Shown here one piece after another: positions 9,886 through 44,877 of a DNA stretch of 64,000 nt. The notes under the pieces were generated by a model. That model had not been told where the DNA came from. It saw only the letters and a list, made by a program, of their open reading frames with translations, and ran no database searches. The stretch is taken from NCBI GenBank assembly GCA_947184155.2, contig CAMXCT020000910.1, forward strand, positions 20,001-84,000, read 5' to 3'. Numbering within the stretch: the first letter of the stretch is position 1; each line of letters begins with the position of its first letter. The DNA is from Cladocopium goreaui (Eukaryota; Sar; Dinophyceae; Suessiales; Symbiodiniaceae). Both the position numbers and the translations under genes were made by a program.

Positions 9886-10010
9886 CTGGGCAAATTATAA
9901 TATGTTATAATATTTCACTAACCTGAATAGTTCGGCCATTTGCGGATGATTCCCCTTATTAACCATGATTATAGTGAGGGAGAATAGTGAGGTCGTTATA
10001 ATTTAGCCAG
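9886..10010. mobile_element. MITE family F copy
   Basis: CTGGGCAAATTATAA to TTATAATTTAGCCAG. It contains the diagnostic 'cactaacctgaatagttcgg' and 'gtgagggagaatagtgaggt'. It is about 10 bp longer than the array copies because 'tatgttataa' is duplicated near the left end. Confidence 0.8.
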
Positions 10011-10407
10011 ATAAGATGTAATAAGTTTTAAACCAACAAAACCGCCCTTTAGGGGGACCCATGGCAAGGGTAATCATCCCCAAGATATCATCATCATTAT
10101 GTTTCCTGACTGAATTGTGCTTTGAAAAGGTTATACATCTCACAAAAAATCCATCTATATCCCATGAATTATTCCCTGTTATATCCCCATGAAATATCAC
10201 CATGACATATCCGCAGCATTGTTGTTGTTTGAGGTTGTTTTTCACCGTGGTTTTGACTACGTAATGGTTGGAGAAGAAACAGTAACAATCAGCATAGTGT
10301 TGTTTATAATCTTATACATCCCATCATATTGCATTCTAGTAAATCACATTCGTTTTCTGTATCCCCAATTAGATTCAAAACCGTATCTTGGGGCCCCACA
10401 CCGTAGG

Positions 10408-16150: not shown

Positions 16151-16261
16151 CTGGGTAAATTATAATAAATCACTAACTTGAAATAAGGCCATTTTGGGAT
16201 GATTCTCGTTATCAACCATGATTCCAGTGAGGGAGAATGGTGAGGTCGTTATAATTTACCC
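16151..16261. mobile_element. MITE family F copy split by the LINE
   Basis: CTGGGTAAATTATAA at the left, running to 'gaggtcgttataatttaccc' at 16242-16261. The expected final AG is displaced to 29575, beyond the 13.3 kb LINE. This is the target element of the insertion. Confidence 0.82.
16246..16261 (+). repeat. Target-site duplication of LINE 1, left copy
   Basis: TCGTTATAATTTACCC, identical to 29559-29574 at the other end of the element. Confidence 0.85.
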
Positions 16262-16495
16262 TTTTCCGTAAGTCAAGAGCCTCCCCCTATCGTGTGGAGG
16301 GAGGTGTCCATGGCGTGAGAAGAATGGTGACAAACAGTGAAAAATAAAAGCAAGCCAAGCGGGACCATGCCAATGCAACCAAAGTAGACCCCAGCAGCAG
16401 TGGAATGGCCCATAGCGACCAAAAAGTATATCCTCATGTCAGGACTCAAAAAGACAGCAGCTGCAGTCGAATGCACCAAGTCAAAGTTGCACCCA
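16262..16495 (-). other. LINE 1 3' UTR with terminal hairpin
   Basis: 234 nt after the ORF2 TAA. Near the very 3' end CCTCCC (16280-16285) can pair with GGGAGG (16299-16304) over a 13-nt loop. The element ends in GGAAAA on its sense strand, directly joined to GGGTAAATTATAACGA of the target. LINE 2 has an analogous arrangement, so this may be the region its RT recognises. Confidence 0.55.
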
Positions 16496-19400
16496 TTATG
16501 CAAAAACAAGAGGTTTCGAGGGAGTGCGCTTCCACTCTCGTACCAATTGAAAACCACGTGCTGCATGCTTGAGCCCCTCGGGCCATGTTCGACACATATG
16601 GGTGACATCCACTCTAGTCACAGGTTGTTCCATCTGTAGGAGATTATCCAACCCTTGATTTGCCAACAAATAAGTGCGCAAAAGCATACACACCTGCCTT
16701 TGGTGCGGAAAGACTGGCCTTGTCTTCACGCCAGCAGGCTGATGTGCTGACCCCAATTGATACAAGGATCGAACGAATCCCAATGGTCGTTGAGGCCAAG
16801 GATCGTATGCATGAAGCTTACGGATCTGCAAAACAAGATTACTAAAGGTGTGCGCAAGCTCTGACAGTCCAACCTGAAAGGTCAAGGCAGCATCCCATGA
16901 ATCAAACGTCTGAAGATATTCAACTCCACTAGGGCGACTCCTTTTGAGTGGCAAAATAACACCTGAATGCACCATGAAAGACACAACCATTTCTGACCAT
17001 GAAATACCAGGATCATCAGGGTGAGGAATACTCTCATCAGGCCATTTCACTTCATGCATCCATGCCAGTACCTTTTCGGCCAACGGACGCCCCCAAGCAG
17101 AATGCTGGAGTAGACAGAGGCCAGGCGGCGGCGGTGACCATACATGTTCCACATTCCATGCACCAAGAATGTCCACTGGATTCGGAGCTGCTGCTGGACG
17201 AAGCTCCGCATGAACAGCTGTCTCCTGTTGCAACGCTTCCAACCTGGCATAATGGGCACGCAAATCCAAAAACAACTGGAACAGTCTGCGAAGGTGTTTC
17301 CTTGTGACATCCTGGTCCAAAAAGATTTCTTCGGCAAGACTGGAGGTTTCTGGCTGAAAATACCGACAGGCAGAGATAGCAGCTTCATTCGCAAGTTTAT
17401 TCCCTAGACATTTGTATACCATGAGCAGGTCCATACCAGAAAAGTCACTTACATGTGCCTTAACCTTACACACCTTCCGTTGACCTGTCTGCAACGCTGT
17501 CCACAAACGTTCAACCAAGTCAAAATTCTCTAAGCTCACCAATGCTTTGACATCATTGGCAGAAAGACACTGATTCCAAGCCAAAATAACGCTCTGACAA
17601 TCCGTATGAATGACTACATTCGGAAACCACTCTGCCGCAAGCAGCACTGCAAAGAACTCAGAACGATAAATGGTCTGATTGCCCGTCGTTCGAGCCATGG
17701 CAAGCTTCATGAGAGAAGGTGGAAAGATACCATGTGTGAGCCACTTTTGAGCTTCCAACTTTCGTTGGTCATCTGTCAGACACGTGTCCAAAACTATGGC
17801 ATAAGCGCCATAGCGGCAGCTAGGATGAGCAGGATGCATGAGAGATCCATCCGTGTACACATGTATATCAAAGCCCAAAGCCATGAGATCAATGATTCTC
17901 TGATACAAGCTAGGGTCCAGCTGCGCCTCCGGACAGCACATGTGCAAAGCCAGGAGTGCATCCTGGCTTGGGTGTCTCAGCAAGAAAGGTAATTCATGAA
18001 CATCAGCCCCATTGTCCAAGAAAAACTGCAAGGTGTCAGTATACGGTTCTCGAATGTGAGCAGAGGCAGGACAGCTAAAAATTCGATGGAACCGATCATC
18101 AAAATCCTGGCAATGGCGGCACTGGCCAGTGGCATCACTCGCCCATTTGGACTTTTGCATCTCAGTCTGAAATGAGCCCGACAACTCTTGAAGAATGTGG
18201 TGTTGCTCCACCTGATTAAAAGTATCAACCAAAGCACCAGTGTCTTCACTATTGAGCTGCAAGAAACGCGGGACCCCTTTACGATCACAGGCATGCATTA
18301 AGAGGTCTGTATCCCATGCATATCTCAACCACCGGATGAGCAGTTTACGGCCAGTTTGGAGAAGAGGCAGCCAGCCAAACGCATGGACATGAAGGCATCC
18401 ATTGGCATCTATCTTCCAACCCAGCTTGGACAAATAAAAGGATAGGACACCAGCAGGACCACGACATTGGTATGACAGCCCAGAATGGGTGGCTGCCATT
18501 CGGAAAAAGGTCTTGCGTTCTGTATCTGTGGCTCGAATCATCATCCGTTTGATAGCCATCAAAACTCGCAGCACAAGCTCAAGAAAAGGATCAAGCAGTT
18601 GTGGGGTGGCAGCCAAAGCCAATGCAGCATTCCTGGAGTGTGAGTGACCCAATAAGGCATTGCTGATAGAGGTCCTAAGTTTCCGAGTGTGACTATCACC
18701 TAGAGGCAGGATCTCAGCACCATAAAACACCGCAGGGAAGATCGCACCCTTCACCACTTGGATCTTGGTATGGAGAGAATGGGGGATTCTCTGAAGCTTA
18801 AGGAGACGAGCATGAACTTTCTCAAGTCGGTTCCTAAACTTACCTAAGTTGGGGACACCCTGATAGGTTACTTGTGCACCTAAATCCATTGCATTTTGGC
18901 ATCGGGGGACATCTGAAGTGGCAGGTGTGGATTGCAAAACATTGGACAACAATGCAAACTGCTCGGAGCTTGTGGCCCAAGCCCATGTCTTCCGCCAATC
19001 AATCTGCATTTGCGTGGACTGCACAAAGCTTGTCGTGAGTGCCAAAATGCTCCGGTGCGCAGCTGCATTGGTAGCACTCCAAGTCCAGTTGTCTGCATAA
19101 GCCGCAATCTGGCACGAAGCCACCCGGTCATGAATCAGGCGTACCCAAATATATGCCAAGGCAAGTATGCTAACTACAGACCAACTGTCACCTTCCGGGC
19201 AACCATGGTTAACAAAAAGCCTATCAGAGCAAACCTCTCCGAGCTTCCAGACACGGCACAGTTTTTGAAGGGAAGCGTACCACTGTCGAGTGATCAAAGG
19301 TGGAAAACCCAGCCAGTCGAATGCATGCAACACCGCAGCCTGGCTAATGGTGTTAAAGCACTTGAGCAGATCGGCTGTGACCCCTGATCTGGGTTGAGCA

Positions 19401-22400
19401 TTGTGGTACGACAATTCTATGAGCCATTGTTGTCGGAGATAGGCATCAGAAGGCCCACGATGAGCCAAGAAGCCTGTGATTTCATCAGGGAACTGCAAGG
19501 ACATAAATGCCAACAGCTGCTTACAAATGACCCGAGACCATAATCGATAGAGCTGAGCCAGGACAGTTATCGGTCTCACCTGAGAAGGCTCTGGAATCTC
19601 ACAGGTCTTCGGGACGGCTATTGTGAATGCTGTCATAAGCCATGCTGGAAATCCACTTTCAAAGCCATTAATGATACGCTGAACATGGGAAATGGCACGG
19701 CCTGGCAAATGTTGCAACTCCTGGGAGGAGATGCCGTCGATCCCTCGAGATGAGGGGATCTTTAACCGCTTTACCGCAGCAATCCATTCATTAGTGTCGT
19801 CCATATCAATTGCTGGTGCCGGCAAATGAATTGGCAGACTGTCAACAAACGCCTGAAACTGTGGAGCTGCCTGTGTTTCAGGGTTGGGTTGGTTCCAAAG
19901 TGGCATCCAAAAGTCTTTCAGCAAGGACAGTATGGAGCATGGATCAGCTGTAATCTGTCGCTGTGTAACAATGTCATGTTCAGGCAGCACATGCTGGTCA
20001 GCCATGCGAAGCTGCAAGGAATACATATCCCTGTGGACCAAAGTGCAAGGAATGTCTCCAACATGGACTGGAGCAGCAAAGTCAAACTGTTCTGCATTGT
20101 CACAATAGGCAACCAAGGTATTAGGCTCATCTTGGACCAGAATGGCATCTTCCGAAAGGTTACGAACCATCTCAACTAAAGGAGGGGCAGTAAATTCACG
20201 AACCGAGGCAAAGGCAGCCCTATTACCCGCATACCTGGCATCCAAGTCTTGAGCGAGGAGAGCTCGATCCTTGTGAAGTTTCCTGTCAAAGGCAACATCT
20301 GCATCAGTCTGAAACCGCAGCAGTTGCAGCATGGTGCCAATATAGCCAACCTGGGGGACCTCAAAGGGTGGAGGACCCAGCTCTGGGGTTTGTTGGCACC
20401 ACCTAATCTGACAACCTCCAAAGGCACGACATCTTAAAATGGCATGCCATTCCTGAGTCATTTCAATCATTGCCTGGGGAGTGGGCTGGCATTGGTGTGC
20501 CTTAACAACCCTGCGATAGAGCGCTTGGACTCTTCGAACCTGCTTGATTCGGCATTGGGTGGTACGTCTGATGACCTCCCCTGGTGGCGAATAATCCCCC
20601 GGTCTAGGAGGTTTGGTGAGGAGCTTTTTCTGAGCCAGCTGGGGCTTTCGAGGTTGGCAACGTCCTCGAAATTGCTTGGGAAGAGGCTTGGTTTGGTGCC
20701 AAGCAATATCTTCATTTTCCTGCTGGGTACAGCGATATGCCCTGTCAACTGCATCTTCAATGGTTCGACCCCAAGCTGTTAAATCTTGTGGTTCTCCAAG
20801 CTGATCCACGGCCAGGTCATAGGATTCAGGCAAGAACTTCGGATCAATTGGCAGGTCAGTCCATGGTCTTGGCAGAGGTATTCGCAGGGTCTCTCTCGCT
20901 ACAGCAGGGATGGTCATTTGAAACAGAACAACATTGTGTGCATCAAAATGGCCAGCTGGAAGAACAGTGACTTGTGAGACCCAACAGGCCGCAGAAGGGG
21001 AGAACACCGCAGTATCCGGCTGTGTAGCTCCTTTGCATGTAGGGGGCATATCACTCCCATGGATTTGACGATGCAACTGTCGAAGGTCAACCAGATGTCT
21101 ATCTTGTGCTTCTTCTGCTATCAGCGCAAGGGGGTCAGAATTAAAGTCTCCCAGAATTACATAAGGCAGGTCGAAATGGGAGACTGCCTGTAAGGCAGCT
21201 TGGAGCAAAAGAGTGTTGGCTCGGCCCGATCCGGAGGTGGCATGCCCATAAATGACAACAATCTGCAATTGAAATCTGCCAGTTTCAAAGAGAAAATGAC
21301 CAATTCTTGATGAAGAGGCATGGAAATCATCAATGGTATCACCAATTTTTCTGATGGGCCAAGATGAGAATAAACCAACACCAGTTGCCTTACCCCGCAA
21401 GGAAGGAAGTCCATCAGACCTCTGGACTCTGTCCGGAGCAGGAACTGACCATTTAGAACGAAAACCAATGTGGCGCATGGCATTGGCAAATTGCCGTTGC
21501 ACCGCAAGGGTGGCCGCTGTTTCAGACGCACTGACAACATCTAAGGCGTGCTCTCGAATGAGCTCAGCATACTGTGTTGGTTTGGAAACAATGCTGGTGG
21601 GATTGGTTATGGCAAAGTTTAGGCAAAGCTGGTCAGGACCAGGGTGCAATGCTTCACCAATTCGCATGGCTACATAAGGATCAAATGATCGCTGTTGAGA
21701 TGGCAAAATGCCATCTTGGCAAGGCCGTACTCGCAAATAAGAAAAAACTCTGGCCTGAGAGGATGCTATACACTTCATGGCAGGCACTGAGAGCATGGCA
21801 CAAGTCAATTGGCATATCAAAGACAATGTTGTCTCCCGAAAGTTTGCAGGATGACAAAACATGGCAAAAAAAATGAACTGCTTTAAGGTCAACCCTGGTG
21901 GCATGGGACTACAGACCAATACAAATGCTTCACCAAAGTTGGGATCGGCGAAACCTGATAGCCCTTGGTTGACCATGGCATGACAAAAAGGGAGGTCGCT
22001 GGTCCTTTCAAGCAAGCTGACTGAACATTTAAGGCCAAAAGGAGCAGCTCCCATTTCGCATCTCTTTGCCGCTTGCACCATTGGTGAAAGAGAGACACGC
22101 AAAAGCAACCGTATACTTTGATCCCCAGCAACTGAAAAAGCTATACAGGCAAAGGCATAAGGCAAAATTAGGCTGGAAAAGTATGGCAGGACAGGTTGCT
22201 CACTAAATTTTCGGCAAAAAACTCTGGCAAGTCGGTGACAGAGCACTGCTGTCAGTGTTCTTGGCCTATGTTGAGATGGCGTGCAGGCAAGAGCCAAAAA
22301 CAAGCAGCATCCATCACTGTGCTGAAGGCTGTGTCGGGTGCAAGAATCTAAACAGTTATGGCACCAGAGACAGGACACATCCACTGCCGTGATATTCCAA

Positions 22401-23539
22401 CAGGGTCGTAGCCTCTCAAAAAGACAAGCAAAAACTGGGAAAAAAGGCCCCAGTGTGTCTGACAAAAATTGGTCGAACCCTGTTTCGCAGGAAGCATTGA
22501 GGAGGGCATCTGGTAAACAATCTGATGCAGCTGATGCCATATTGGCATACAAAACGTCAAACGCAAATGGACAGGGCATCCTCAATGTCCACAAACAATC
22601 ACCTTGGCTATACATTGCTGGCAATAAGTGAGGCATGAGTGTCATGACAGATACTGTACAATGGAAACTGGTCAAATGTCCAAGGAATGACATGATCATC
22701 CAGCCATGGAACTGTTCCATGTGCTCACATAAAGCAGCGTGAAAAAACTTAGCCAAATCCGTGATGGCCAATGATATAGCAAGCAAACGCCATAGCCCTG
22801 GGCTCCAACATGTGCAGGAGTATACAGGCTTAACACAATCGCCATCAATGTCACACCCAAGTGCCAGTGAAATAGGGCATGGAGAAACATGAATCCCAAT
22901 GGAGGAAAATGGCTGTGAAAATGGCTGATCAGCGGGTGTTCCAACTAATGGAAGCAAGTATTTGTCAATGGTCGTTGGGGATTCTATACACTTCAGGCAG
23001 AAATCGACACATTGACAGGTACCAAATTGGGTTGGTATGGCTTGAGACCAATTCCTGTGATGTCCATGGAGGAATAATGCAACAGAAAACAACAATGAAA
23101 ACAGCAAACCGATCAACATCGAGTAGTGGATCTTCCGGATCTTCTGGGAGCAAAACTGTTGTGGTGCTTCAACATCACCCAGAAGTCCGGTCAGTGTTAA
23201 GGTATCAAACCGAAAAATGATACAATATTGACAAATCATCGAACGGCACAAGAGCCCCACAGGACTATTCGAAAGACACAACACAGGAGACCTAGGATGT
23301 TCTATACACTGTAGACAGGCTAAGAGAAATTGCACAAAAAGGGGTGGCCTGTTTAATCCCAGGTTTTGTCGACACAAAATGGTGACTAGTCTCAACAAAC
23401 TGTACATCAGTGCGGTGAACAAAAGTGTCCACCTTGGAAATGTCCAGGATACCAGCCGGTCACAGTTGTTTGCGGCAGAGATAGCACATTGCACACAATG
23501 TCTCATATACACTGCCAAAAGTTGGATTATGCAAGGCAA
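16496..23539 (-). CDS. LINE 1 ORF2: endonuclease / reverse transcriptase / RNase H
   Basis: A 2,347-codon frame, far longer than a normal LINE ORF2. Residues 1-350 are the second copy of a Cys-rich hydrophobic repeat, and up to about 620 the protein stays Cys-rich. RIGEALHPGP is at 626-635. The AP-endonuclease-like domain (about 635-890) has Glu673, GDFN at 797-800 and an Asp866/His868 pair. The RT domain (about 1240-1520) has GIDG, DLLKCF (Asp1390), GCPEGDSW at 1446-1453 and YADN at 1481-1484, where YxDD is usual. A CCHC knuckle is at 1807/1810/1818/1823. RNase H (about 1890-2060) has Asp1897, Glu1961, Asp1980 and His2029, with GNKLAN where GNxxAD is usual. The role is target-primed reverse transcription in the nucleus. 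The frame begins without an ATG (the first is at 23506), and homology shows it should be continuous with the upstream ORF, so the true start lies upstream of a frameshift. Confidence 0.9.
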   Translation of the reverse strand: MPCIIQLLAVYMRHCVQCAISAANNCDRLVSWTFPRWTLLFTALMYSLLRLVTILCRQNLGLNRPPLFVQFLLACLQCIEHPRSPVLCLSNSPVGLLCRSMICQYCIIFRFDTLTLTGLLGDVEAPQQFCSQKIRKIHYSMLIGLLFSLLFSVALFLHGHHRNWSQAIPTQFGTCQCVDFCLKCIESPTTIDKYLLPLVGTPADQPFSQPFSSIGIHVSPCPISLALGCDIDGDCVKPVYSCTCWSPGLWRLLAISLAITDLAKFFHAALCEHMEQFHGWMIMSFLGHLTSFHCTVSVMTLMPHLLPAMYSQGDCLWTLRMPCPFAFDVLYANMASAASDCLPDALLNASCETGFDQFLSDTLGPFFPVFACLFERLRPCWNITAVDVSCLWCHNCLDSCTRHSLQHSDGCCLFLALACTPSQHRPRTLTAVLCHRLARVFCRKFSEQPVLPYFSSLILPYAFACIAFSVAGDQSIRLLLRVSLSPMVQAAKRCEMGAAPFGLKCSVSLLERTSDLPFCHAMVNQGLSGFADPNFGEAFVLVCSPMPPGLTLKQFIFFAMFCHPANFRETTLSLICQLTCAMLSVPAMKCIASSQARVFSYLRVRPCQDGILPSQQRSFDPYVAMRIGEALHPGPDQLCLNFAITNPTSIVSKPTQYAELIREHALDVVSASETAATLAVQRQFANAMRHIGFRSKWSVPAPDRVQRSDGLPSLRGKATGVGLFSSWPIRKIGDTIDDFHASSSRIGHFLFETGRFQLQIVVIYGHATSGSGRANTLLLQAALQAVSHFDLPYVILGDFNSDPLALIAEEAQDRHLVDLRQLHRQIHGSDMPPTCKGATQPDTAVFSPSAACWVSQVTVLPAGHFDAHNVVLFQMTIPAVARETLRIPLPRPWTDLPIDPKFLPESYDLAVDQLGEPQDLTAWGRTIEDAVDRAYRCTQQENEDIAWHQTKPLPKQFRGRCQPRKPQLAQKKLLTKPPRPGDYSPPGEVIRRTTQCRIKQVRRVQALYRRVVKAHQCQPTPQAMIEMTQEWHAILRCRAFGGCQIRWCQQTPELGPPPFEVPQVGYIGTMLQLLRFQTDADVAFDRKLHKDRALLAQDLDARYAGNRAAFASVREFTAPPLVEMVRNLSEDAILVQDEPNTLVAYCDNAEQFDFAAPVHVGDIPCTLVHRDMYSLQLRMADQHVLPEHDIVTQRQITADPCSILSLLKDFWMPLWNQPNPETQAAPQFQAFVDSLPIHLPAPAIDMDDTNEWIAAVKRLKIPSSRGIDGISSQELQHLPGRAISHVQRIINGFESGFPAWLMTAFTIAVPKTCEIPEPSQVRPITVLAQLYRLWSRVICKQLLAFMSLQFPDEITGFLAHRGPSDAYLRQQWLIELSYHNAQPRSGVTADLLKCFNTISQAAVLHAFDWLGFPPLITRQWYASLQKLCRVWKLGEVCSDRLFVNHGCPEGDSWSVVSILALAYIWVRLIHDRVASCQIAAYADNWTWSATNAAAHRSILALTTSFVQSTQMQIDWRKTWAWATSSEQFALLSNVLQSTPATSDVPRCQNAMDLGAQVTYQGVPNLGKFRNRLEKVHARLLKLQRIPHSLHTKIQVVKGAIFPAVFYGAEILPLGDSHTRKLRTSISNALLGHSHSRNAALALAATPQLLDPFLELVLRVLMAIKRMMIRATDTERKTFFRMAATHSGLSYQCRGPAGVLSFYLSKLGWKIDANGCLHVHAFGWLPLLQTGRKLLIRWLRYAWDTDLLMHACDRKGVPRFLQLNSEDTGALVDTFNQVEQHHILQELSGSFQTEMQKSKWASDATGQCRHCQDFDDRFHRIFSCPASAHIREPYTDTLQFFLDNGADVHELPFLLRHPSQDALLALHMCCPEAQLDPSLYQRIIDLMALGFDIHVYTDGSLMHPAHPSCRYGAYAIVLDTCLTDDQRKLEAQKWLTHGIFPPSLMKLAMARTTGNQTIYRSEFFAVLLAAEWFPNVVIHTDCQSVILAWNQCLSANDVKALVSLENFDLVERLWTALQTGQRKVCKVKAHVSDFSGMDLLMVYKCLGNKLANEAAISACRYFQPETSSLAEEIFLDQDVTRKHLRRLFQLFLDLRAHYARLEALQQETAVHAELRPAAAPNPVDILGAWNVEHVWSPPPPGLCLLQHSAWGRPLAEKVLAWMHEVKWPDESIPHPDDPGISWSEMVVSFMVHSGVILPLKRSRPSGVEYLQTFDSWDAALTFQVGLSELAHTFSNLVLQIRKLHAYDPWPQRPLGFVRSLYQLGSAHQPAGVKTRPVFPHQRQVCMLLRTYLLANQGLDNLLQMEQPVTRVDVTHMCRTWPEGLKHAARGFQLVREWKRTPSKPLVFA
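21635..21664 (-). other. RIGEALHPGP motif before the endonuclease (2A-like?)
   Basis: It sits at the boundary between the Cys-rich region and the endonuclease, where 2A-type ribosome-skipping peptides (DxExNPGP) separate modules in some LINEs. Glu and PGP are conserved but the key Asn is His, so cleavage is doubtful. From memory, RIGEA-x-x-PGP is common at this place in dinoflagellate elements. Confidence 0.35.
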
Positions 23540-24878
23540 ACAGGATATCTGGTTGGCAAAAACGGCACCTTAGCACAACTTCAGAGTCACCGTCCCTATC
23601 CATGAAAGAGCAGGCTGGCAGCGGAGTGGAAGCTGGCTGGGTCAGGGGGCAAAATTGAGGGACATCGCCTTCAGTATCCAATGGCCCAGCAATCGATATC
23701 TGTACGCTTGGCAAGGGCTGGCCGGTGTACGTTTTGCAGAGCCAAGTGTACACCGGATCATCTGGAAAGCAAACGGATGCATTGAATGCCGTGTCCAGAA
23801 TAAAATGGTCAAACAAATTAAAACAAGGCAGCATCAATGTCCATAAATCGCCAACATATCTATACAGTGATGGCAGGAAATGAGTCATAGCTGTCATGTC
23901 GAATGCCATGCACAAGGAACATGACAAAAGGCCAAACATGGACATGAACATCTGGCCATGGAACTGATTCATGTGTGCACATTTAGCAGCATTACCAAAC
24001 ATAGCCAGTTCCGTACTGATCAAGGCTATATTAAGCAAACAGCATAGCCAGGAGCTCCAACAGGTGCAAGACCACATTGGTGCGGCAAGTACACAACCAA
24101 GAACCAGTGAAATAAAACATGCACGAAATCCAACTAATGGAAGCAAGTAAATGTCGATGGTCGTAGGAAATTCCATACATTGCAGGTATGGACCGACACA
24201 TCGACTGTCACCAGATTTAGTTGTCAGGTCATGGAACTGATCCATGTGATGTCCATCTAAGGCTGGTGCAGCAGTGTACCTAAGTGATATCGGAAAAAGA
24301 CCAAGCAGTAAATTGCAAAGCTTTAGGGTCATCTGGAGACCAAACTGTTGCAGTGCTTTATCATCTCCCAGAAGTCCTATGGGCAGTGGGACGTCAAACC
24401 AGAAAAAGTAACAGGCAAGACAAATCATCAGTCGGCACCTGAGCCTCTCAGGACTGTGCGAAAGGCACGACCAAAGGGACAGACAACATGCTATACACTG
24501 AAAACAGGCTAGCAAAAGAAGTACAAAACGGGGCAGCCTGTTTGATCCCAGATTTGGTCGAAACAACCTAATGACAAAATGCGAATTGTGCATCAGAAGG
24601 ATGAACAAATGCGCACCCCTTGGGAATGGCCAAGGAAGCACGCGGTCCATATGGTTTTTTGCGACTGGGATGTCACATTGCTCAAAATGTGGCATACACG
24701 ATGCCCTAGATTGGATTGTGCTAATCATGGCAAACAGGAAATCTGGTTGGCAAAAAAAGGACCTTAACACAACTTCAGAGTAACCGTCCCTATCCATGAA
24801 GAAGCAGAATGGCATTTGAATTAAGGCTTCCAGGGTCAAGTGGGGGCAAAATTGAAGGTCATCGCCTTCGACACCCAC
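22500..24878 (-). repeat. Tandem duplication of a 1.19-kb Cys-rich coding unit
   Basis: Two in-line copies encode about 400 residues each. The start of unit 1 (MDRDGYSEVVLR, codon at 24797) is matched by MDRDGDSEVVLR at 23603, 1,194 bp away. Later landmarks also repeat: SPTTIDKYLLPLVG against FPTTIDIYLLPLVG, and YSCTCWSPGLW against WSCTCWSSWLC. Similarity fades after GDCLWTL in unit 2, at about 22.6 kb. The units are diverged at the nucleotide level, so the duplication is old. Confidence 0.8.
23460..24878 (-). CDS. LINE 1 middle ORF: Cys-rich hydrophobic repeat unit 1
   Basis: 472 codons, in the same frame as ORF1 and following its TGA by only 24 nt. It encodes one full Cys-rich unit with several hydrophobic stretches (such as FVLLLLACFQCIACCLSLWS and CCLLNIALISTELAMFG) and the start of unit 2. 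The frame ends at a TGA at 23460-23462 after a 5-nt length difference from unit 1, while the unit 2 homology carries on in the ORF2 frame. I infer that ORF1, this ORF and ORF2 were once one or two longer ORFs. The domain is not one I recognise. The many Cys and hydrophobic residues suggest a membrane-associated or metal-binding module. It could be translated by TGA read-through, by re-initiation at its ATG at 24878, or not at all. Confidence 0.6.
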   Translation of the reverse strand: MGVEGDDLQFCPHLTLEALIQMPFCFFMDRDGYSEVVLRSFFCQPDFLFAMISTIQSRASCMPHFEQCDIPVAKNHMDRVLPWPFPRGAHLFILLMHNSHFVIRLFRPNLGSNRLPRFVLLLLACFQCIACCLSLWSCLSHSPERLRCRLMICLACYFFWFDVPLPIGLLGDDKALQQFGLQMTLKLCNLLLGLFPISLRYTAAPALDGHHMDQFHDLTTKSGDSRCVGPYLQCMEFPTTIDIYLLPLVGFRACFISLVLGCVLAAPMWSCTCWSSWLCCLLNIALISTELAMFGNAAKCAHMNQFHGQMFMSMFGLLSCSLCMAFDMTAMTHFLPSLYRYVGDLWTLMLPCFNLFDHFILDTAFNASVCFPDDPVYTWLCKTYTGQPLPSVQISIAGPLDTEGDVPQFCPLTQPASTPLPACSFMDRDGDSEVVLRCRFCQPDILFALHNPTFGSVYETLCAMCYLCRKQL

Positions 24879-24902
24879 AGGCCCCGCTCTCGGTGGCGTT
24901 TG

Positions 24903-27900
24903 TCAATCTCGCATGTCTCCTCCATCTTCAGGCTTCCGCTTCTGCTGTCCTCCAAGAAGGTGCTTGAGCTCGGCCATACGCTCCTCCATAACTGCAGTAT
25001 TCTTCTGAAAGGCATTTTGCAGGGCACGATCCAGATCATTCTTGATGGCGTCCATTGTCTGGGCAACCTGGTGAACTTGCTTCTGCTCTCTTTCCTCTGC
25101 AGCCTGAAAGCGAGCTTCTGTGTGCTTTGTGAAGGCTTCTTGTTGTTTGGCAAGAGTTTGGATCTGAGCTTCAATCGTCTGGAGTTTCTGATCCTGAGCT
25201 TGCAATCTGGACTCCGTAGGGCCATCAGCAGAGCGGGGCTGCATCACTGCAGGGGCCGTTGGTTTTGGTCCTGTATATCGAGCCCACGGATCCATGTCAA
25301 CAGTATGGTCGTGAAAAGGGTCTTTGACATGCTTGGAAGATCGTGGTCCAACCAAAACAGAAGCATTGGCAGCAGGTTTGGGTGGCAAGTGACGCACCAA
25401 AATAGGTGACGCATTGAACATGAGAACCCCCTCCGGTGGATGCCGATCAGAACGTAAGAGCATGGCCCGGGGTCCAAGATTACGAATGGGCTGGCAAACC
25501 CAGCCTGTCTTCTGGGCCCATTGCTGCATGACTTCAAAAGTGGTGCCAAACGGAAGGCCTTCCGCCTTAAACATTAGCTCCCCTTTGAGTTGGTGTGGAC
25601 GAGGGGCATTGGGACAAAGGATATCCCAAGCAGCGTCGAAATCAGAATCCTTGAATCTCAAACCCAACGTTTTCTTCCCCTTTGCCATACCCAAGCATGA
25701 GGCAACTTTGGCACTGCAAACTGCAGCCTGTCGAGAGTCACACTGCAGCCAAATGATTCGATAGTCCAAAGAGATCTTGCCAGAAGGCTGCTTCGGTGTA
25801 CAGAACAAATGGTTGAATCCAGATCTGGCCAAAAAGGTGGCAACCTTGTCCATGCCAATTGAACAATGGACCTGGATGGTCTGTGCTTGTACAGGGGCAC
25901 AGGGCGCCCGATCACTGCGAAAGGAACGACCCCACATGGACAAGACCGCATCAGCCAATCCTTCTGCCTGCAATAATTTCCTGATGAATGGGAAAGTGTT
26001 TTGTGTGGCTTCTGTCCATTGCTCAACGGAGAAATCACCTTTGTACAAAGTGATGGCCATCAACATGCACTTGGCAGCATCAACTTGCTGAGGATCACCC
26101 TTTTGGTATAACACCTCTTTGGCCCCCAGTTGATACATGAAGCACTTGAGTAGTACCATATTGCCATCAAGGTTGTGGCAGGGGACCGACAGTTCCTGAA
26201 ATGGCAGCTTGGATTCAGGTTTGGCCCCAACCACCAACAAGGCAAGCTCATCAGCAGATAACTTCTCCGGTGTTTGAAGCCATTGGGCGGCTTGGGTTGT
26301 TCCCATCAAGCAGATGCCTGTCGCCTGAGGTCGCAACAGTGGGATGGCAGGACATGGTGTTCCATCCTGATTCTTGAAGAAAGATTCCACCAAAGTGAAC
26401 TCATTCGGATCAATAGGATCAGTACCTTTCTTCTTCTTTGGGCGCTGCCAGGGGAGCCCGTTTGGCTTTTTCCGGGTGGATGGCTTTGCTGGCTCAGGAA
26501 CTGCGATGTCAGTCTCTCGACAAAGGGTGAGGAGCGCAGTCATTTTGGCATTCCCTGTTGGCATGGCAGTAATCGTTTGGATCTTGGACAAGCTATGCTT
26601 CTGAAGAAGAGTATCAGCAGTCTTCGATATCCATTGCAATTCAAAACCGTGCTCCAAAAGATAGGAGGCCAGTGCCGTCTGTTGCAGAATTCGTTGCTGG
26701 TTTTTCACACCAACTCCTCCACCTCTTAATGCAAGGACGGCATGAATGAGTACAGCCTGGCGATGATCTGTGATTGGAAGGTCGGCAATTGCGGTCTCAG
26801 GCATCACCTGGTGAGCTTGGCAAATCAACCTATGGGCGGCAGGTCCAGATACCGGCATCATGGCATGCTGAAGAAATTTGATGATCATGGCGGCTGTGAA
26901 AGACTGGGGAATCATTCCTTCCCACAGCGGACGTGTCCACCATTTCAGCAAGAATGGCTTTTTGGAATCCTCACCATGTGAAGCAATGGCACAATCCATC
27001 AGAACACGAAATGCTGCAATGGAGAGGGCAACATCAAACGCAATTGGAGTGACCACACCATGCTGTCGAGCAGGAGCAAAGCAAACTTGCGTGGAATCTT
27101 CATGATGCACAATGGAGACAATACGACCCAAGTGAGTCAGACTTTCATCATGCAAGGCCAACTTCCAAAATGTCGCCGTCAGTCGACGAATTTCAATGTC
27201 GCCTGTGATGCTGAGCTCCAATTGATCTTGAGACCTATTCCACAGCTTTGATGTAGTGGCAAGTTCAAGGGCTGCAAGCAGAGGCAGAATGTCCGGCAAC
27301 ACCTGATCTGGGTTACAGCCATGCTTCAGAGGACGACTCAACAACAAGGTATGATCATCTGTGGTCTGGTGGATATTGAGCGGTCCGAATTGATCATACA
27401 CAACCTCAGCCATCTGGGCAATAGCCTCATGAGCCAACAAAGGCGTGTTGACATCCAGCCTGAAAAGGGTCAGTTGTTCGTCCAAAAGAATCTGTACCAT
27501 AAGTTTCGGCATCATGCTATCCGTGGGAAATGGAACAGTTCGCAAATGGAGAGCCGTGCATGCATGGGTGTCATCTTCGTCAGGAAAAACACACTCATAC
27601 GCAAAGGACCATGGAGTTTCAACAATGCACGCTGGCAGATCCGCAGAAAACCAAAATTTGATTGTCTGCTCAGGCAGTTGCAATGCGGCTGGCAACACTA
27701 CTGAAAAAGGCATGGTGGCCGAATGCTCATCATTGTCGGATGCTGGCGATGATGCCACCGAGAAAGCAATGTCATAAACCGATTGTCCTGGCGGCAAGTC
27801 ATGTTCCTCAGGCTGTGAAAGGGGCATCAAACCTAGTTCAGGAATCCATGCATGCATCTTGTCAAGTCTTTCAGCAAAACTATCACAGTCCAACAGGCTA

Positions 27901-29492
27901 TCCAAAAACCTCTTTGAAGGCACTTGATCTGACATAGTGAAAAAGACACCTCGGTTTGCGTGAGTGACGTGAGCATTTGGCAGCAATCGTACCTGGGCAA
28001 GCTTCTCAAGCGCCTGAGCTGCATCTACATGGGTTGGCATGATTGCATTAACCACATTCAGCAAGGGAAGCATGGCATGCAACGGTGTGATGCAATTTCC
28101 AATAATCATCCATGCAAGCTTGTGGTCATTGGGCAAGTAGAGTTGGTTGATCATACCATGAACCATTGCAATTTCAACGGGGTGGAAAAGACGTGCCCCA
28201 AATGGCAGCCCATTTTGCCGATGAAAGAAACCCAAGTATCCATGCTTGTTGAGGAAGTCATCATTGATCTCATGTTGGGATCCATATCGTGCGAGAAACG
28301 TTGGCAAATACTGATCAGTAGCATACAACCGAGACTGGAAGACAACCGACGGTGGCTGCAATTGGTCAGAACGGCGGGATGCTTTCTTTGGATCGGATGC
28401 AACGGATGCCATGAATTGTGTAATGAGCAAAGGCCGGATGCTGGCATCATCCCATTGGAAGATGCACTGGCTGTGATCAGGCGGAAAAACTGGAAAAACA
28501 GATCTGGCCAAAGTAGGAACTGACCAGTCGCCATGTACACGCTTAGCAACCGCTGTCCAACGACTCCTGGAGACCCCTAAGAGTTCTTTGATGTCCCAAA
28601 CCCTCTGCCAAGTGAGCTTATATCCAATCCATCTGAGGGCTTTCTCAATCACTCCTTTGTGGTCATGTGTACAAAAACCAGCAACATTCTCCATGGCTAT
28701 GTACTGAGGTCGAAGAAAACGACAAAGCAAAATTGAATGAAGAAAAAGTTGCCCCTCTTCCTTCCATAAACCAGCTGATGTCGATGCATTACTCCAGGAC
28801 GGACATGGAGCACTTATAGTGACAAGGTCAACACCCCACTTCGTAATGGCAGGAAGCCATCTCTTTGAAAGAACATCATCACAAATGACCCAGTGGCCTG
28901 CGTAGTTTCTTTCAAAGTCAAATGGAATTGTGTCGTCTGGTTCAATAAGTGCTGCTGCATGATTCATGGAATAAGTGAAAGCCGTGTTCAAATCAACCTC
29001 GATACCAATGGATTGCGACTGAACCCCTTGCAGACTAAAAATCATGTCAAGCATGGCAGTCCAACCCCCAATTCCCCCCGAAAACATCTCAAGGTGATGA
29101 AAAACATGATCTCTGTTTGGTGAGTCAACAAACCCCCATTCCGAGCAGTCATCAAAGAAAAACGTACGCACATCCAGGGGGTGATCAGTCACCTGCCAAA
29201 CCCAAAGTTTGGTGTTCATGGGCGGAATGGCTCTCTGAATGTCCCAGACCAAAGTCAAGCCAGTCTCATTCTTGACGTCACCAGGAACTACAACTGAATC
29301 CCTCCAAAACTTGTCAACACCTGAGCCCTCTGGGACCCACTGATCCATCTGCAGATTCAAAACATTTTCCCACAGAGTATAGTTGGTGAATTCTATCAAC
29401 ATGTTGATCCTCTTCTGAAATGGCAAACATCCATCAGCTGACTCAATGTCATAGCGCTGAATGATTGAATCCACCAGTTCATTCACTTCCAT
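24903..29492 (-). CDS. LINE 1 ORF1: DNA cytosine-C5 methyltransferase fused to a coiled-coil ORF1-like protein
   Basis: 1,529 codons from the ATG at 29490-29492 (a TTG at 29531 is also in frame and a stop lies at 29544-29546). The methyltransferase domain spans about residues 132-487: EMFSGGIGG (SAM-binding motif I), SIGIEVD (motif II), SAPCPSW with the catalytic Cys near residue 230 (codon at 28803-28805), AMENVAGF (motif VI), GVSRSRW (motif VIII) and IIGNCITPLHA (motif X). All core motifs are intact, so activity is plausible. A long unassigned region follows, with an ALRGGG stretch and a basic PKKKKG patch that could be a nuclear signal. The last 100 or so residues are a Gln/Glu-rich coiled coil after a DPWARY motif, as in ORF1-type RNA-binding proteins. 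The role is inferred: methylation of element or target DNA, plus RNP assembly. The stop is TGA C. Confidence 0.88.
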   Translation of the reverse strand: MEVNELVDSIIQRYDIESADGCLPFQKRINMLIEFTNYTLWENVLNLQMDQWVPEGSGVDKFWRDSVVVPGDVKNETGLTLVWDIQRAIPPMNTKLWVWQVTDHPLDVRTFFFDDCSEWGFVDSPNRDHVFHHLEMFSGGIGGWTAMLDMIFSLQGVQSQSIGIEVDLNTAFTYSMNHAAALIEPDDTIPFDFERNYAGHWVICDDVLSKRWLPAITKWGVDLVTISAPCPSWSNASTSAGLWKEEGQLFLHSILLCRFLRPQYIAMENVAGFCTHDHKGVIEKALRWIGYKLTWQRVWDIKELLGVSRSRWTAVAKRVHGDWSVPTLARSVFPVFPPDHSQCIFQWDDASIRPLLITQFMASVASDPKKASRRSDQLQPPSVVFQSRLYATDQYLPTFLARYGSQHEINDDFLNKHGYLGFFHRQNGLPFGARLFHPVEIAMVHGMINQLYLPNDHKLAWMIIGNCITPLHAMLPLLNVVNAIMPTHVDAAQALEKLAQVRLLPNAHVTHANRGVFFTMSDQVPSKRFLDSLLDCDSFAERLDKMHAWIPELGLMPLSQPEEHDLPPGQSVYDIAFSVASSPASDNDEHSATMPFSVVLPAALQLPEQTIKFWFSADLPACIVETPWSFAYECVFPDEDDTHACTALHLRTVPFPTDSMMPKLMVQILLDEQLTLFRLDVNTPLLAHEAIAQMAEVVYDQFGPLNIHQTTDDHTLLLSRPLKHGCNPDQVLPDILPLLAALELATTSKLWNRSQDQLELSITGDIEIRRLTATFWKLALHDESLTHLGRIVSIVHHEDSTQVCFAPARQHGVVTPIAFDVALSIAAFRVLMDCAIASHGEDSKKPFLLKWWTRPLWEGMIPQSFTAAMIIKFLQHAMMPVSGPAAHRLICQAHQVMPETAIADLPITDHRQAVLIHAVLALRGGGVGVKNQQRILQQTALASYLLEHGFELQWISKTADTLLQKHSLSKIQTITAMPTGNAKMTALLTLCRETDIAVPEPAKPSTRKKPNGLPWQRPKKKKGTDPIDPNEFTLVESFFKNQDGTPCPAIPLLRPQATGICLMGTTQAAQWLQTPEKLSADELALLVVGAKPESKLPFQELSVPCHNLDGNMVLLKCFMYQLGAKEVLYQKGDPQQVDAAKCMLMAITLYKGDFSVEQWTEATQNTFPFIRKLLQAEGLADAVLSMWGRSFRSDRAPCAPVQAQTIQVHCSIGMDKVATFLARSGFNHLFCTPKQPSGKISLDYRIIWLQCDSRQAAVCSAKVASCLGMAKGKKTLGLRFKDSDFDAAWDILCPNAPRPHQLKGELMFKAEGLPFGTTFEVMQQWAQKTGWVCQPIRNLGPRAMLLRSDRHPPEGVLMFNASPILVRHLPPKPAANASVLVGPRSSKHVKDPFHDHTVDMDPWARYTGPKPTAPAVMQPRSADGPTESRLQAQDQKLQTIEAQIQTLAKQQEAFTKHTEARFQAAEEREQKQVHQVAQTMDAIKNDLDRALQNAFQKNTAVMEERMAELKHLLGGQQKRKPEDGGDMRD

Positions 29493-29558
29493 GGCTCTTT
29501 CGCGGAATCTTTGAACGAAACCGACAGGCAAACCACTCGAAGGTTAGAGCCTAATGCC
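29493..29558 (-). other. LINE 1 5' leader
   Basis: The 66-nt sense-strand leader begins GGCATTAGGCTCTAACC. It loosely resembles the 3' half of the dinoflagellate spliced leader (CATTTTGGCTCAAG) but needs gaps, so this is only suggestive. No promoter motif is evident. Confidence 0.3.
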
Positions 29559-29574
29559 TCGTTATAATTTACCC
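29559..29574 (+). repeat. Target-site duplication of LINE 1, right copy
   Basis: TCGTTATAATTTACCC, followed by AG, the missing end of the split MITE F. Confidence 0.85.
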
Positions 29575-38992: not shown

Positions 38993-39092
38993 ACCCATAG
39001 GATCCATGGTGCTGCTATATATGGTAACATGGATCCCATCAATATACCCCAGTCATGTTAGCATATATACCAGCACCATGGATCCTATGGGT
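38993..39092. mobile_element. MITE family D copy at the head of the satellite
   Basis: ACCCATAGGATCCATGGTGC to 'gcaccatggatcctatgggt'. The right end of this element is found inside every 212-bp unit that follows. Confidence 0.78.
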
Positions 39093-39115
39093 TAGTGGAA
39101 TATAACACCATTAGT

Positions 39116-39652
39116 CTGGGTAAATTATAATATTTCACTAACCTGAATAGTTCGGCCATTTGGGGATGATTTCCCTGACTAACCATGATTATAGTGAGGG
39201 AGAACAGTGAGGTCGTTATAATTTACCCAGATTTATAGAGGATTTTCCATTGCCACCTGTGATTTATAGAGGATAATTTCCATTGCACCATGGATCCTAT
39301 GGGTTAGTGGAATATAACACCATTCGTCTGGGTAAATTATAATATTTCACTAACCTGAATAGTTCGGCCATTTGGGGATGATTTCCCTTACTAACCATGA
39401 TTATAGTGAGGGAGAACAGTGAGGTCGTTATAATTTACCCAGATTTATCGAGGATTTTCCATTGCCACCTGTGATTTATAGAGGATAATTTCCATTGCAC
39501 CATGGATCCTATGGGTTAGTGGAATATAACACCATTAGTCTGGGTAAATTATAATATTTCACTAACCTGAATAGTTCGGCCATTTGGGGATGATTTCCCT
39601 GACTAACCATGATTATAGTGAGGGAGAACAGTGAGGTCGTTATAATTTACCC
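39116..39652. repeat. 212-bp satellite, left block (three units, third interrupted)
   Basis: Each unit is one 115-bp MITE F (39116-39230, 39328-39442, 39540-39652 cut) plus a 97-bp spacer that ends with the right terminus of MITE D. The anchor 'taaattataatatttcac' is at 39121, 39333 and 39545, spaced exactly 212 bp. Confidence 0.9.
39633..39652 (+). repeat. Target-site duplication of insert 2, left copy
   Basis: GAGGTCGTTATAATTTACCC, identical to 44042-44061. Confidence 0.9.
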
Positions 39653-39799
39653 TTTTCCTCGCGTCGGGAGGGTCGCCAGCCTGACCTAAGTGAAGCTGGT
39701 GCCTTTCACCACTTCCATCCTCCCTCATGGAGGGAATTGCTACCCAGTCATTGGAGCAAACCGCAACTGTTGCTGCGGGTTCTTTAACCAGTCTCTGAT
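39653..39799 (-). other. LINE 2 3' UTR with terminal hairpin
   Basis: 147 nt. TCCCTC (39721-39726) pairs with GAGGGA (39730-39735) over a 3-nt loop. The sense strand ends in GGAAAA joined to GGGTAAATTATAACGA, the same junction as LINE 1. Confidence 0.55.
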
Positions 39800-42770
39800 T
39801 CATCGTGCAGCTTTATGTGTCATGGCAGTTCTGCTGTCCCAGGATTGCCTGAGTTCGCTCTTAACCTGCAGAAACATGGCCTCGTCCGGTTCAATGGGGA
39901 ATTCAGGAATATCCACAAATGCCCGGCCTCTGTGGCGAAGTAAGTATGGTTGCAAGCTCGAAAGAACCTCAGTTTGAAACGGCACAACTGCCCGTATCCG
40001 GAATCCACTGCTGAAAAACGCAGCCCCTTGGATGTAAAGGCTGCGCACCAGTCCACGCTCAACCTCCGGAAAAATCGGAGTATCTTGGAGATCTTGCAGT
40101 TGCTTACAAAAAATTGCGAAAAGATTAGCGAGTTCTGACAACTTAACATCATAGGCTTTCAGAGCTGCAAAAGACTGTATGGGAGTCAGCATCATGACTC
40201 CCTCTTGTCCTGGTCTTTTCACTGGAAGAAAGCATCTGGCAAAAATCATAAAGGACAAAACCATTTCGATCCAAGTCAAGCCTGCATTTTGGATTTCATC
40301 GTCTGTCCGATTAGTTGGCCATCTTATCTGATTGCACCAGTCTTGTAGCTTGGCTGTCAGTGTTGGCCCCCAAGTGCAATGTCGCAGCTCCTGGACTTGA
40401 GGGGCCACTCTGCTCCAGCAAGGGTCAGCCTGGTATTGGCAAAGCTTGTGGAAAACCGCCTGTCTGGTAGGCAGTGCCTGCTCTGGGAGTGTGGTGGCTT
40501 CCTCTTGCTGTTTGATGAATTTAAGTTCAGCATGTCTGCGGATCACTTCCAGGTGGTAGCGCAACAATTGTGCCAAGTGATGGCGTTGAGCTGCAAGGTC
40601 CTTATGCATGTCCTGCATCTCTTGAACCAGTGGCGCCAACAGGAATTCATTGGCTGTGATGGCAACGTCGTTCGCGCGCTTGTTTCCCAGTCGGTGATAA
40701 AGTGTCAGCCACGGAACCTGCGAATCCTCTTCCGCATGTGCTTTGACCTTCAGGAATTGCCTGTTGCCTGTATGGAGTGTCACCCAAAGGCGCAAAACAA
40801 GGTCTAAATCTTCCATATCATGCAGGGTGTCAGGGTTACTGGTATTTTGGCATCTACGTATGGCGGCTAGGGTGACCGCAGAATCTGTGTGGACTATGGT
40901 GTTTTGGAAACGCTCACATATGTACACTATGGCATATAACTCTGCTCGGTGGATGCGTTGCTCACCTGGGGTGCGAGCAACCGCAAGGCTACAAAGAGTG
41001 CATGGCATGTGCTGTCCTGTTGCATAGTGCTTTGCATGCTGTTCTCTTTCTGCATCATCTGTGGCTGTATCTATGATAACCGAATGTGTGGAATAGCTTT
41101 CATTGGGGTGCGCTGGAAATTGACAAGACCCGTCTGTATAGAAACTCAATGGCGCTCCCTGCATGTCAACCGCGTGGACTGCCTGGTAGAGACCTGGCTG
41201 GATGTCAGGCTCTGTGTGAGTCCAATTGCAGAGGTGTAGCCATTCGGCCTGCGAGTGCGTATGTATGACTGGTAGCTCGTGCCAGTATGTTCCCTCATTT
41301 TGCATCCATTGGAAAGTGAGTGGGTATTGTGCCCTTATATCTTCAACCAACGACCAACGTGCAGTGAAATAACCTATGCTCCCTAGTATCCAAAACCTGA
41401 CAGTTGGAGCAGTTGGGGCTGGTGGAAGTGTCCCAGACTGCCTGCTGTGCGGCGGTTTGATATGCTGCTGAAATTTCGTTCAACAAAGTTTTCCAGTCCT
41501 GCCTGGGAAACTGCCGCATGACTGCAGTGGTGTCAAGTTTATTAATAGGGGGCAAACCCTTTAAGGCTGTTCGGTCGGAAAATCTGGGCAGCAATTGGGT
41601 TTCCCACTCTTTTTGGAGGAGGCGCCTCCAGCATTGCCTACTGGTTGTGAAAAGGTTAAGGCGCAAAAAGGCTGTTACCTGGATATTACCTAGCTTATCA
41701 ATTACCCATCCCATTCGGCTAAGGTAAAACTTAAGACAGCCCGCCGGGCCTTTGCATTCGTAGGAAATTCCTGAGTGCTGTGAGGCAATACGCAGAAACA
41801 GCTGCGCATCTTTTGGAGTGCATCTGTGCAGGAACCTGTGAGCCATGTCAATAGCATTCTGTGTCAAGACCAGCTCTGGGTCTTGGAGCTTCGGCAGGCA
41901 TTGGATAGCTATGGCTGAGTTTCGGCTAACTGATGGGCCTAAAATTGCATCAGCAATGCTGGACCTCAGTTTGTCTGTATGCTGCCGGCCAATTGGGATT
42001 ATGGCAGACGCATAAAAAACTTGGGGATAGATGCCCATAGTGACCAGCATACTTTTGCTACGGGCATCGTGTGGCATGTGCTGCAACTGTCTAAGTCTAC
42101 GCTCGGCTTCGGACAGCCTCTGGCTGACTTTTCCAAGTTTGGGGGGACCCCTATATGTTAATTGCCCACCAAGATCCATTGCTTGCATCAGTGTGGCGAC
42201 AGCATTGGGTCCAAGCAGGTCCCGTAACGCTTTTTTCAAGGGTGGTAGGTGGGACTGGTGTGTCATCCAGATCCAGCTTTTCTTCCAATCTATGGTCATG
42301 GTGTACGCCCCTACAAAAGAACTAGTATGTCTGAGGACGCTGGCATGAGCCTGGGGGTGTTTGGCCATCCATCCCCAGTTATCAGCGTATGCCCCCATTG
42401 TTACATCGTCTGTATGCCTGTGAATATACGCAATCCAACATGTGGAAATCAGAACCATAACCAGTACTGAGAGGGGGTCTCCCTCAGGGCAGCCTCTAGA
42501 GGTATGTAAAATTGGACCTATTAAGGGGCCTAGTGTCCAAGATCGTGTGACCTCTTGGAGTGAAGTATACCATTGATTAACCAGAGTTCTGGGAATGCCT
42601 ACGTGCAGCATGGTGGATTGAGCTGCCTCTCTGTCGATTGTGTTGAAGCATTTAAGGAGGTCAATGGAAATACCTGAGCGGTGTCCTTGCCCATTATGGG
42701 CTTGTTCAAGCAACCATTGAAACTCATATATAGCATCATAGGGCCCTCGGGACGGTAGGAACCCTGTATA
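39800..42770 (-). pseudogene. LINE 2 ORF2 fragment: partial RT, zinc knuckle, RNase H; truncated and frameshifted
   Basis: Homology to LINE 1 ORF2 starts at about 42770 with LPSRGPYDAIYEFQWLLEQ, inside the RT domain, so endonuclease and early RT motifs are gone. The first frame (to 41343) has DLLKCFNTI, GCPEGDPLS, YADN and the knuckle CSNCQVLDTREHRLFHC. A one-frame slip at about 41343-41350 leads to the RNase H frame (39800-41350) with FYTDGS, HRAELYAI, HTDSAV, KVKAH and GNKRAN. The protein is clearly diverged from LINE 1 (by eye less than half identical), so it represents another subfamily. The copy is dead by truncation. The frameshift may be real or an assembly error. Confidence 0.82.
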
Positions 42771-42777
42771 TATATAA

Positions 42778-43461
42778 TCATAATATAATGTTTCTGAAAA
42801 TTGCGCCCTTGTACTCCTCCAAATTCATCTGAGTCCTCGTGATCCTGTGTTTGCTCATATTTACCAATCTTGTGATAAATTTCTTTCTCATCTTCAAATA
42901 TTCAGTTCTCAACATTTCTCCTGTATCTAAACTTCTTTTTCTACGCTCCAAACATGAACTCAATCTCAAACGTGCATCTTCCGCGATTGAATGTTTTGGC
43001 CTCCATTTTCCGCGTCCAACCAAATTGTGTATATATAAGTAAGGTGCCACATCAACATGTCTCACATCACCATTCTTTGTCAAAGAACCACGCAACTTCC
43101 ACTCTTCATGCATTTCAGATGTGGCTTCACGATATTCCTCATCATTCATTCTATACAAACCCATCCGTTTGTCTGTCAAATACATCTTCAGTACTCTCCA
43201 GTTTTCACTACGACATAGCTTGCTAGCTATGATCCAACCTGCAGCCCGAGCATATCCCCACTTGTTGTTGATTGCCATTGAGCATAGCTCATATTGCTCT
43301 TCAAGGTCATCTATATCATATTGATCCATTAGCCTTCCAATACGTAGACGTCTGTAAGGCAACAACTCACCTGGTGGCTTAGCCAGCAAGCTTTCCACAT
43401 AGCCATGATGTCCCTTGAGGCGTCTTTGCGCTCTCAGCTCACCTACGCTTGTTTGAGCCAT
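42778..43461 (-). CDS. Unrecognised 227-residue ORF in the chimeric insert
   Basis: ATG-initiated (43459-43461). A basic, helical-looking protein: it begins MAQTSVGELRAQRRLKGHHG, has an acidic stretch DQYDIDDLEEQYELCSMAIN, and ends in a Lys/Arg-rich segment (RKKFITRLVNMSKHRITRTQ). No signal peptide, membrane segment or known motif. It lies on the same strand as the LINE fragment and is joined to it about 10 bp after its stop. Intronless, with a different base composition from the LINE. Possible origins are a processed host mRNA or an accessory ORF of an unknown mobile element. The sequence around its start resembles a decayed spliced leader (see findings). Confidence 0.5.
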   Translation of the reverse strand: MAQTSVGELRAQRRLKGHHGYVESLLAKPPGELLPYRRLRIGRLMDQYDIDDLEEQYELCSMAINNKWGYARAAGWIIASKLCRSENWRVLKMYLTDKRMGLYRMNDEEYREATSEMHEEWKLRGSLTKNGDVRHVDVAPYLYIHNLVGRGKWRPKHSIAEDARLRLSSCLERRKRSLDTGEMLRTEYLKMRKKFITRLVNMSKHRITRTQMNLEEYKGAIFRNIIL

Positions 43462-43589
43462 AATCTACAATACAACAACATAAAAATAATAATATGCCAA
43501 TTTTCAATACTTCACATAACCATCAAGAACTCATCATAGCGTACATTCTGCATAACTTCATTTTTACGCCACAGCTCAACACTCTCAAG

Positions 43590-44021: not shown

Positions 44022-44041
44022 CCTTCTTCTGATCTCAGCAC

Positions 44042-44061
44042 GAGGTCGTTATAATTTACCC
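44042..44061 (+). repeat. Target-site duplication of insert 2, right copy
   Basis: GAGGTCGTTATAATTTACCC, followed by the continuation of the interrupted satellite unit ('agatttatagaggat'). Confidence 0.9.
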
Positions 44062-44699: not shown

Positions 44700-44816
44700 A
44701 TATATATATAATATACAATATGTATAATATGGCTAATCAATGATTAGTACTAACAATTATTATGATTAGTAACCACTATTAAGAATGATTTACCATTATC
44801 AACCATGATAATTCCT

Positions 44817-44877
44817 ACAATGTGAGGCCCCCCAGTGATGTTTGTTGGTTTATAAGCCCCAGTAACTATAGTTATTG
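44817..44877. mobile_element. MITE family C, left half
   Basis: ACAATGTGAGGCCCCCC to 'aactatagttatt', then abruptly replaced by a GC-rich segment. Confidence 0.62.

Follow-up and report, generated by a model that had tools for sequence, protein, structure and literature searches.

Two LINE retrotransposons in the 64,000-bp stretch of the Cladocopium goreaui genome analysed here (hereafter the window) end at one and the same base of a short, high-copy repeat, which raises the question of whether they came to lie there by chance or belong to a lineage that targets the repeat.

A shared 3' junction in repeat F

The sequence GAGGTCGTTATAATTTACCC occurs at 16242-16261 and at 39633-39652 of the window, and in both places TTTTCC follows directly. 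The resulting junction, GAGGTCGTTATAATTTACCC^TTTTCC, is the 3' end of two elements, LINE1 and LINE2, and lies 2 bases inside the end of a 115-bp repeat, F. This confirms the proposal of the initial annotation that two diverged LINEs end at an identical base of F. Its description of unfilled F copies as continuing with AGAT or AGTG holds for most copies in the window, but fails for those at 54238 (ATAT) and 9989 (GCCAGAT, one change). Divergence of the two elements was likewise borne out: blastn found no DNA match between them at E 1e-3, and their proteins share 41% and 33% identity in two regions. A random insertion would fall at the exact right end of F with a chance of about 1.4e-6 (arithmetic from 3255 such ends in 1.166 Gb), so the junction shared in the window is not a chance event. 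The window has a G+C content of 41%, below the Symbiodiniaceae genome means of 45.8-50.7% given in the available excerpt of PMC11114475.

LINE1 is a methylase-encoding element of 13,297 bp (16262-29558, minus strand), delimited by its junctions, target duplication and reading frames. It inserted into the F copy at 16151-16261 (plus strand; blastn identity of 84-87% to other full-length F copies) and, as sequence comparison revealed, is flanked by a 16-bp target duplication, TCGTTATAATTTACCC, with one plus-strand copy at the LINE 3' end (16246-16261) and the other at the 5' end (29559-29574), after which AG follows as in unfilled F. Its 3' tail (16262-16310, minus strand) carries the conserved hairpin described below and a short A tail. 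The ORF2 frame (P0001; 16496-23569, minus strand) has Pfam matches to RVT_1 (E 1.5e-15) and to Exo_endo_phos (E 2e-05), the latter only just above the Pfam cut-off; the endonuclease domain occupies about residues 636-900 of this frame. The ORF1 frame (P0002; 24906-29543, minus strand) matches C-5 cytosine DNA methylase (PF00145, E 1.4e-13), and locus L069 has an ORF1 C-terminus related to it. The predicted order of a methylase ORF1 upstream of a reverse transcriptase-bearing ORF2 is that of SymbioLINE-Dnmt of Symbiodinium, as far as the excerpted description of that element goes, a likeness drawn from domain layout (PMC5890265). A methylase-bearing LINE is itself indicative of a dinoflagellate, perhaps one of the Symbiodiniaceae. 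Around the ORF1-ORF2 gap (22571-24869), LINE1 contains an imperfect direct duplication (~73%) whose period is ~1.2 kb.

LINE2 is a 4,389-bp insertion (39653-44041, minus strand), delimited by its junctions and by a 20-bp target duplication, GAGGTCGTTATAATTTACCC, with plus-strand copies at the LINE 3' end (39633-39652) and 5' end (44042-44061). Both duplication lengths given in the initial annotation, 16 bp for LINE1 and 20 bp for LINE2, therefore stand. The F copy that received LINE2, identified by blastn, spans 39540-39652 (plus strand) and sits in a 212-bp tandem array (39073-44841) into which the element inserted. The LINE part proper (39653-42768) matches RVT_1 (E 4.8e-13) and, below the Pfam cut-off, RNase H (E 0.013); the reverse transcriptase fragment had no match in the viral contig collection. 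The 5' 1,273 bp (42769-44041, minus strand) are non-LINE sequence with two open frames (P0005, P0006) that lack a confident Pfam match. Upstream of the point where this segment begins, L073, a member of the LINE2 family, has different sequence that matches ORF2, and the arrangement resembles a chimera formed by template switching in a single insertion. Copies of the LINE2 family are ~99% identical, which suggests recent insertion.

Site 1 across the genome

We call the shared junction base site 1, GAGGTCGTTATAATTTACCC^AG. Across the 6202 contigs of the 1.166-Gb assembly, exact copies of the F right end number 3255, and a reversed-pattern control has none. The junction TTATAATTTACCC|TTTTCC occurs 21 times in the same genome (reversed-pattern control, 0). 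We read all 21, which carry several tail families, and every one lies at the right end of F, the one with GAGGTCG. The opposite, left end also carries TTATAATTTACCC, with 2210 exact copies when its own leading bases are included, and it holds none of these 21 inserts, a count that covers TTTTCC tails only; recognition therefore extends past the 13 bases that the two ends have in common. At 137 F right ends the next base is not A. Among the 100 of these that were listed, 27 adjoin recognisable LINE 3' ends, and the other 73 were left without a LINE assignment.

We also searched the genome for LINE 3' tail patterns, without using F. Tails lay in F at the site-1 base in 5/5 cases for the LINE2 family, 4/4 for the LINE1 type, 6/6 for family C (one in a variant F copy), 4/6 for family D and 4/4 for family E. 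A broad hairpin pattern had eight matches, four of them LINE tails, all four in F. The remaining matches (L133-L136) had neither hairpin nor F and were judged to be chance; if they are counted, the overall tally becomes 27/33. As it stands, the tally is 27/29, or 22/24 once duplicates are removed, with copies that share flanks, L138/L139 among them, counted once, and flanks shorter than 130 bp not comparable. The two exceptions, L131 and L132 of family D, are flanked by GGGATGGTTTATA.. and GGATGGTTTATA.., the second of them within another repeat. This tabulation of flanks of other 3'-end copies is the one that the initial annotation had proposed, and the random flanks that it named as contrary evidence did not appear. 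A precise 3' junction is shared in a defined target, the mark of a target-specific non-LTR retrotransposon. Specificity of the clade for F is not absolute.

The elements found at F form several families that are 20-48% identical in ORF2, the frame in which F-site loci resemble the LINEs of the window. Such divergence, together with a common 3' hairpin, supports the earlier suggestion that the specificity is old. One filled F site is present three times at C5989 (L025-L027), ~47 kb apart and with near-identical 450-bp flanks; judged by its sequence, this is a tandem segmental duplication.

A second position within F

With the last 301 residues of the ORF2 frame of LINE2 as query, we found at least 131 matches genome-wide, a lower bound because they were scored from 239 first-look candidates. 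For 55 of the 131 the 3' flank is known: 36 lie at site 1, 15 at a second site in F, and 4 elsewhere. From the 75 highest-ranking rows, two split rows belonging to C5989 were dropped and the remaining 73 compared by position; 25 of the 73 adjoin known site-1 junctions, a number that includes duplicates arising from a single event (C125/C2121, C5989 three times, C631/C6141). Two matches, C6081 and C1979, read as off F. Twenty further places gave 11 at site 1, 7 at site 2, one in a different MITE (L154) and one in no recognised repeat (L155); among those counted as site 1, L149 failed the 4-mismatch filter and was placed in a decayed F copy by eye. Eight additional copies were all at site 2. These 28 places were picked from the top down, with some near-identical rows skipped, and are not a random sample.

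Site 2, AAGGCC^ATTTGG, is occupied at L151-L153 and L156-L167. There GGCCTTAATTCAGGTTAGTGAAATATTATAATTTACCCAG, or a slight variant of it, comes after the LINE; unfilled F reads AAGGCCATTTGGGG, and the plus strand of F is broken after AAGGCC. The exact base is uncertain by 1-2, since many tails end in G. In the window, the equivalent position in an F copy without insert (59058-59172, plus strand) is 59097^59098 (GGCC^ATTT). No pair among the 15 site-2 copies shared flanks when their last 110 bases were compared by blastn. At both sites, every copy read has its LINE sense strand on the minus strand of F. At L154 (~220-300), a LINE of the same group ends at GGCC^ATTTTCAATAGC in its different MITE family.

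It could be argued that these elements have only a weak preference: their endonuclease would favour AT-rich stretches that end in CC, and F, being common and a good match, would be hit with no dedicated targeting of the MITE. Off-F insertions at TATAAACCATCC(C)^ and GAAAATGGCC^ do resemble the F sites, and sites 1 and 2 have little in common beyond AT-rich..CC^. A weak preference should scatter insertions, however, and 51 of the 55 ORF2 copies with known flanks occupy just two positions in F; the abundant left end, with its TTATAATTTACCC, is free of TTTTCC inserts. We therefore regard this explanation as unlikely and retain dedicated targeting of F.

The nature of repeat F

F is 115 bp long with inverted ends, CTGGGTAAATTATAA, which extend over 15 bp in most window copies. 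An AT-rich flanking direct repeat of 6-7 bp was present in 3 of 8 intact copies tested and in none of the other 5. Several plus-strand copies in the window have no insert: one at 9886-10011, with a flanking repeat (ATAAGAT) read by eye; two at 39116-39443 in the 212-bp tandem array; three at 44161-44700 in an array of the same kind; and a shortened copy at 54159-54258, with AT repeats on its flanks and outermost two bases that deviate from the usual CT..AG ends. Patterns for the F end had no matches in the viral contig collection or the genome contig collection that we scanned.

By its terminal inverted repeats, F, a high-copy repeat, appears to be a MITE-like element. Some features would also suit a different multicopy sequence, such as a SINE, an RNA gene or a satellite, acting as the LINE target: six F copies around LINE2 lie in the 212-bp tandem array, and the short flanking repeat is missing from most of the intact copies tested. 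The 15-bp inverted ends and the AT-rich 6-7 bp repeats beside some copies fit a MITE instead, and we consider it quite unlikely that F is something else.

Three MITE-like families in the window (e.g. at 33173, 36706 and 39116) carry CTGGT or CTGGGTAAA close to one terminus, with ACCAG or ACCCAG close to the opposite one. Such ends resemble GT..AG splice sites, and these families are possibly introners. In the excerpted text of PMC9860276, the introners of Symbiodinium microadriaticum are, like F, short dinoflagellate elements with terminal inverted repeats; their duplications are 4 bp, whereas F has flanking repeats of 6-7 bp in 3 of 8 copies.

Insertion anatomy and proposed mechanism

At site 1, inserts for which both ends were read have target duplications of 15-20 bp. 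These measure 16 bp for LINE1, 20 bp for LINE2, 15 bp for L013, L016, L020, L050 and L073, and 16 bp for L037; L011 has 16 bp with one mismatch (exact match 9), and L130 has 19 bp, read by eye. Two inserts carry two labels each (L016 is L065, and L018 is L073). Whole filled sites with inserts of only 26-48 bp are also visible, and inserts down to 26 bp are expected from 5' truncation.

Sixteen site-1 tails, of LINE1 and LINE2 type, share a 7-bp stem close to the 3' end, after which comes a short and for the most part A-rich stretch. With arms placed by hand, 97.3% of 112 cells were paired, compared to a shuffled mean of 75.7%, and the covariation score was 0.832 versus 0.386 for shuffled alignments; none of 500 shuffles was as high on either measure, a comparison to be read in the knowledge that related sequences can exceed shuffles. 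Controls in which the hairpin was slid were 33-58% paired. Two of the five measures were weaker: both-side pair changes numbered 5 (reached in 102/500 shuffles) and further pair types 15 (reached in 23/500). In single-sequence folds, the 15 site-2 tails mostly form a similar, longer hairpin. In other LINEs the reverse transcriptase is known to recognise the 3' end of the RNA, and the tail hairpin fits such recognition.

Predicted reverse transcriptase and endonuclease domains, 5' truncation and target duplications together point to LINEs that move by target-primed reverse transcription. The encoded putative endonuclease, perhaps with other DNA-binding parts, would nick a strand of F after ACCC (site 1) or GGCC (site 2), and the freed 3' end of F would prime reverse transcription of the LINE RNA, the hairpin of which the enzyme may recognise. 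A second nick 15-20 bp away would produce the target duplication. As a MITE with thousands of copies, F would offer a landing site that is continually renewed.

Later amplification of a small number of ancestral insertions, whether through segmental duplication or through movement of F with its cargo, is a very improbable explanation. Some copies do have near-identical surroundings: the 450-bp flanks of L009/L019, L020/L022 and L025/L026/L027 match at 99.8-100%, and L138/L139 agree at 93% over 183 bp. Among flanks long enough for the filter (at least 130 bp), however, no other pair compared is alike beyond F. The F sequence around the inserts varies between copies, the tails come from many diverged families, inserts as short as 26-48 bp exist, and with duplicates removed 22 of 24 tails still lie in F. 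We hold it to be highly probable that a diverse LINE clade, some members of which carry a methylase ORF, inserts at fixed positions of F by target-primed reverse transcription.

Discussion

The best-known LINEs with target specificity insert in RNA genes and telomeric repeats, and to our knowledge a mobile repeat has rarely been described as the target of a LINE. Tx1L of Xenopus reportedly inserts in the DNA transposon Tx1D, as Christensen et al. are said to have described in 2000. Tx1L is an apurinic-endonuclease LINE for which Tx1D is the fixed target, and in this the LINEs described here are like it. Tx1L is known as one family with one target, whereas here many families, some with a methylase ORF, use two positions in a short MITE. 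In PDB the LINEs studied here had only weak matches, to two R2 proteins and one other reverse transcriptase.

That LINEs can be target-specific, with transposons among the targets, is already noted in the excerpts available of two papers (PMC4640811, PMC8869645). According to the first of these, R1, R2, Keno, Utopia and other LINEs target multicopy RNA genes, and Keno and Utopia both insert in U2 genes (PMC4640811). The present LINEs resemble them in having precise 3' junctions in a repeated target and in that distinct lineages can use one site; they differ in that the target is a mobile-type repeat and not an RNA gene. For SymbioLINE-Dnmt, the available excerpt reports no target specificity, and a word search of the text found neither 'target site' nor 'mite' (PMC5890265), whereas here methylase-bearing LINEs and LINE2-like LINEs lie at fixed positions in a MITE. 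We found no report of a MITE-targeting dinoflagellate LINE among open-licence papers. A LINE clade that is diverse, partly methylase-encoding and linked to two positions of a single MITE appears to be new.

How far the association extends is a broader matter. We lean towards the view that a whole dinoflagellate LINE superfamily, including its methylase-bearing members, has specialised on a single MITE family, with lineages split between two fixed positions of the 115-bp MITE. LINE and MITE would then be evolving in the roles of parasite and landing pad, possibly a harmless one, the MITE perhaps being intron-like. The initial annotation had likewise cast the MITE as a harmless place to land, and a role for F as a benign landing pad is plausible.

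A single genome holds many LINE families, two target positions within one short MITE, empty sites in their thousands and filled ones in dozens. How target specificity evolves, and how elements switch from one site to another, can thereby be tested directly. Methylase-encoding LINEs, whose biology is unexplained, gain a target.
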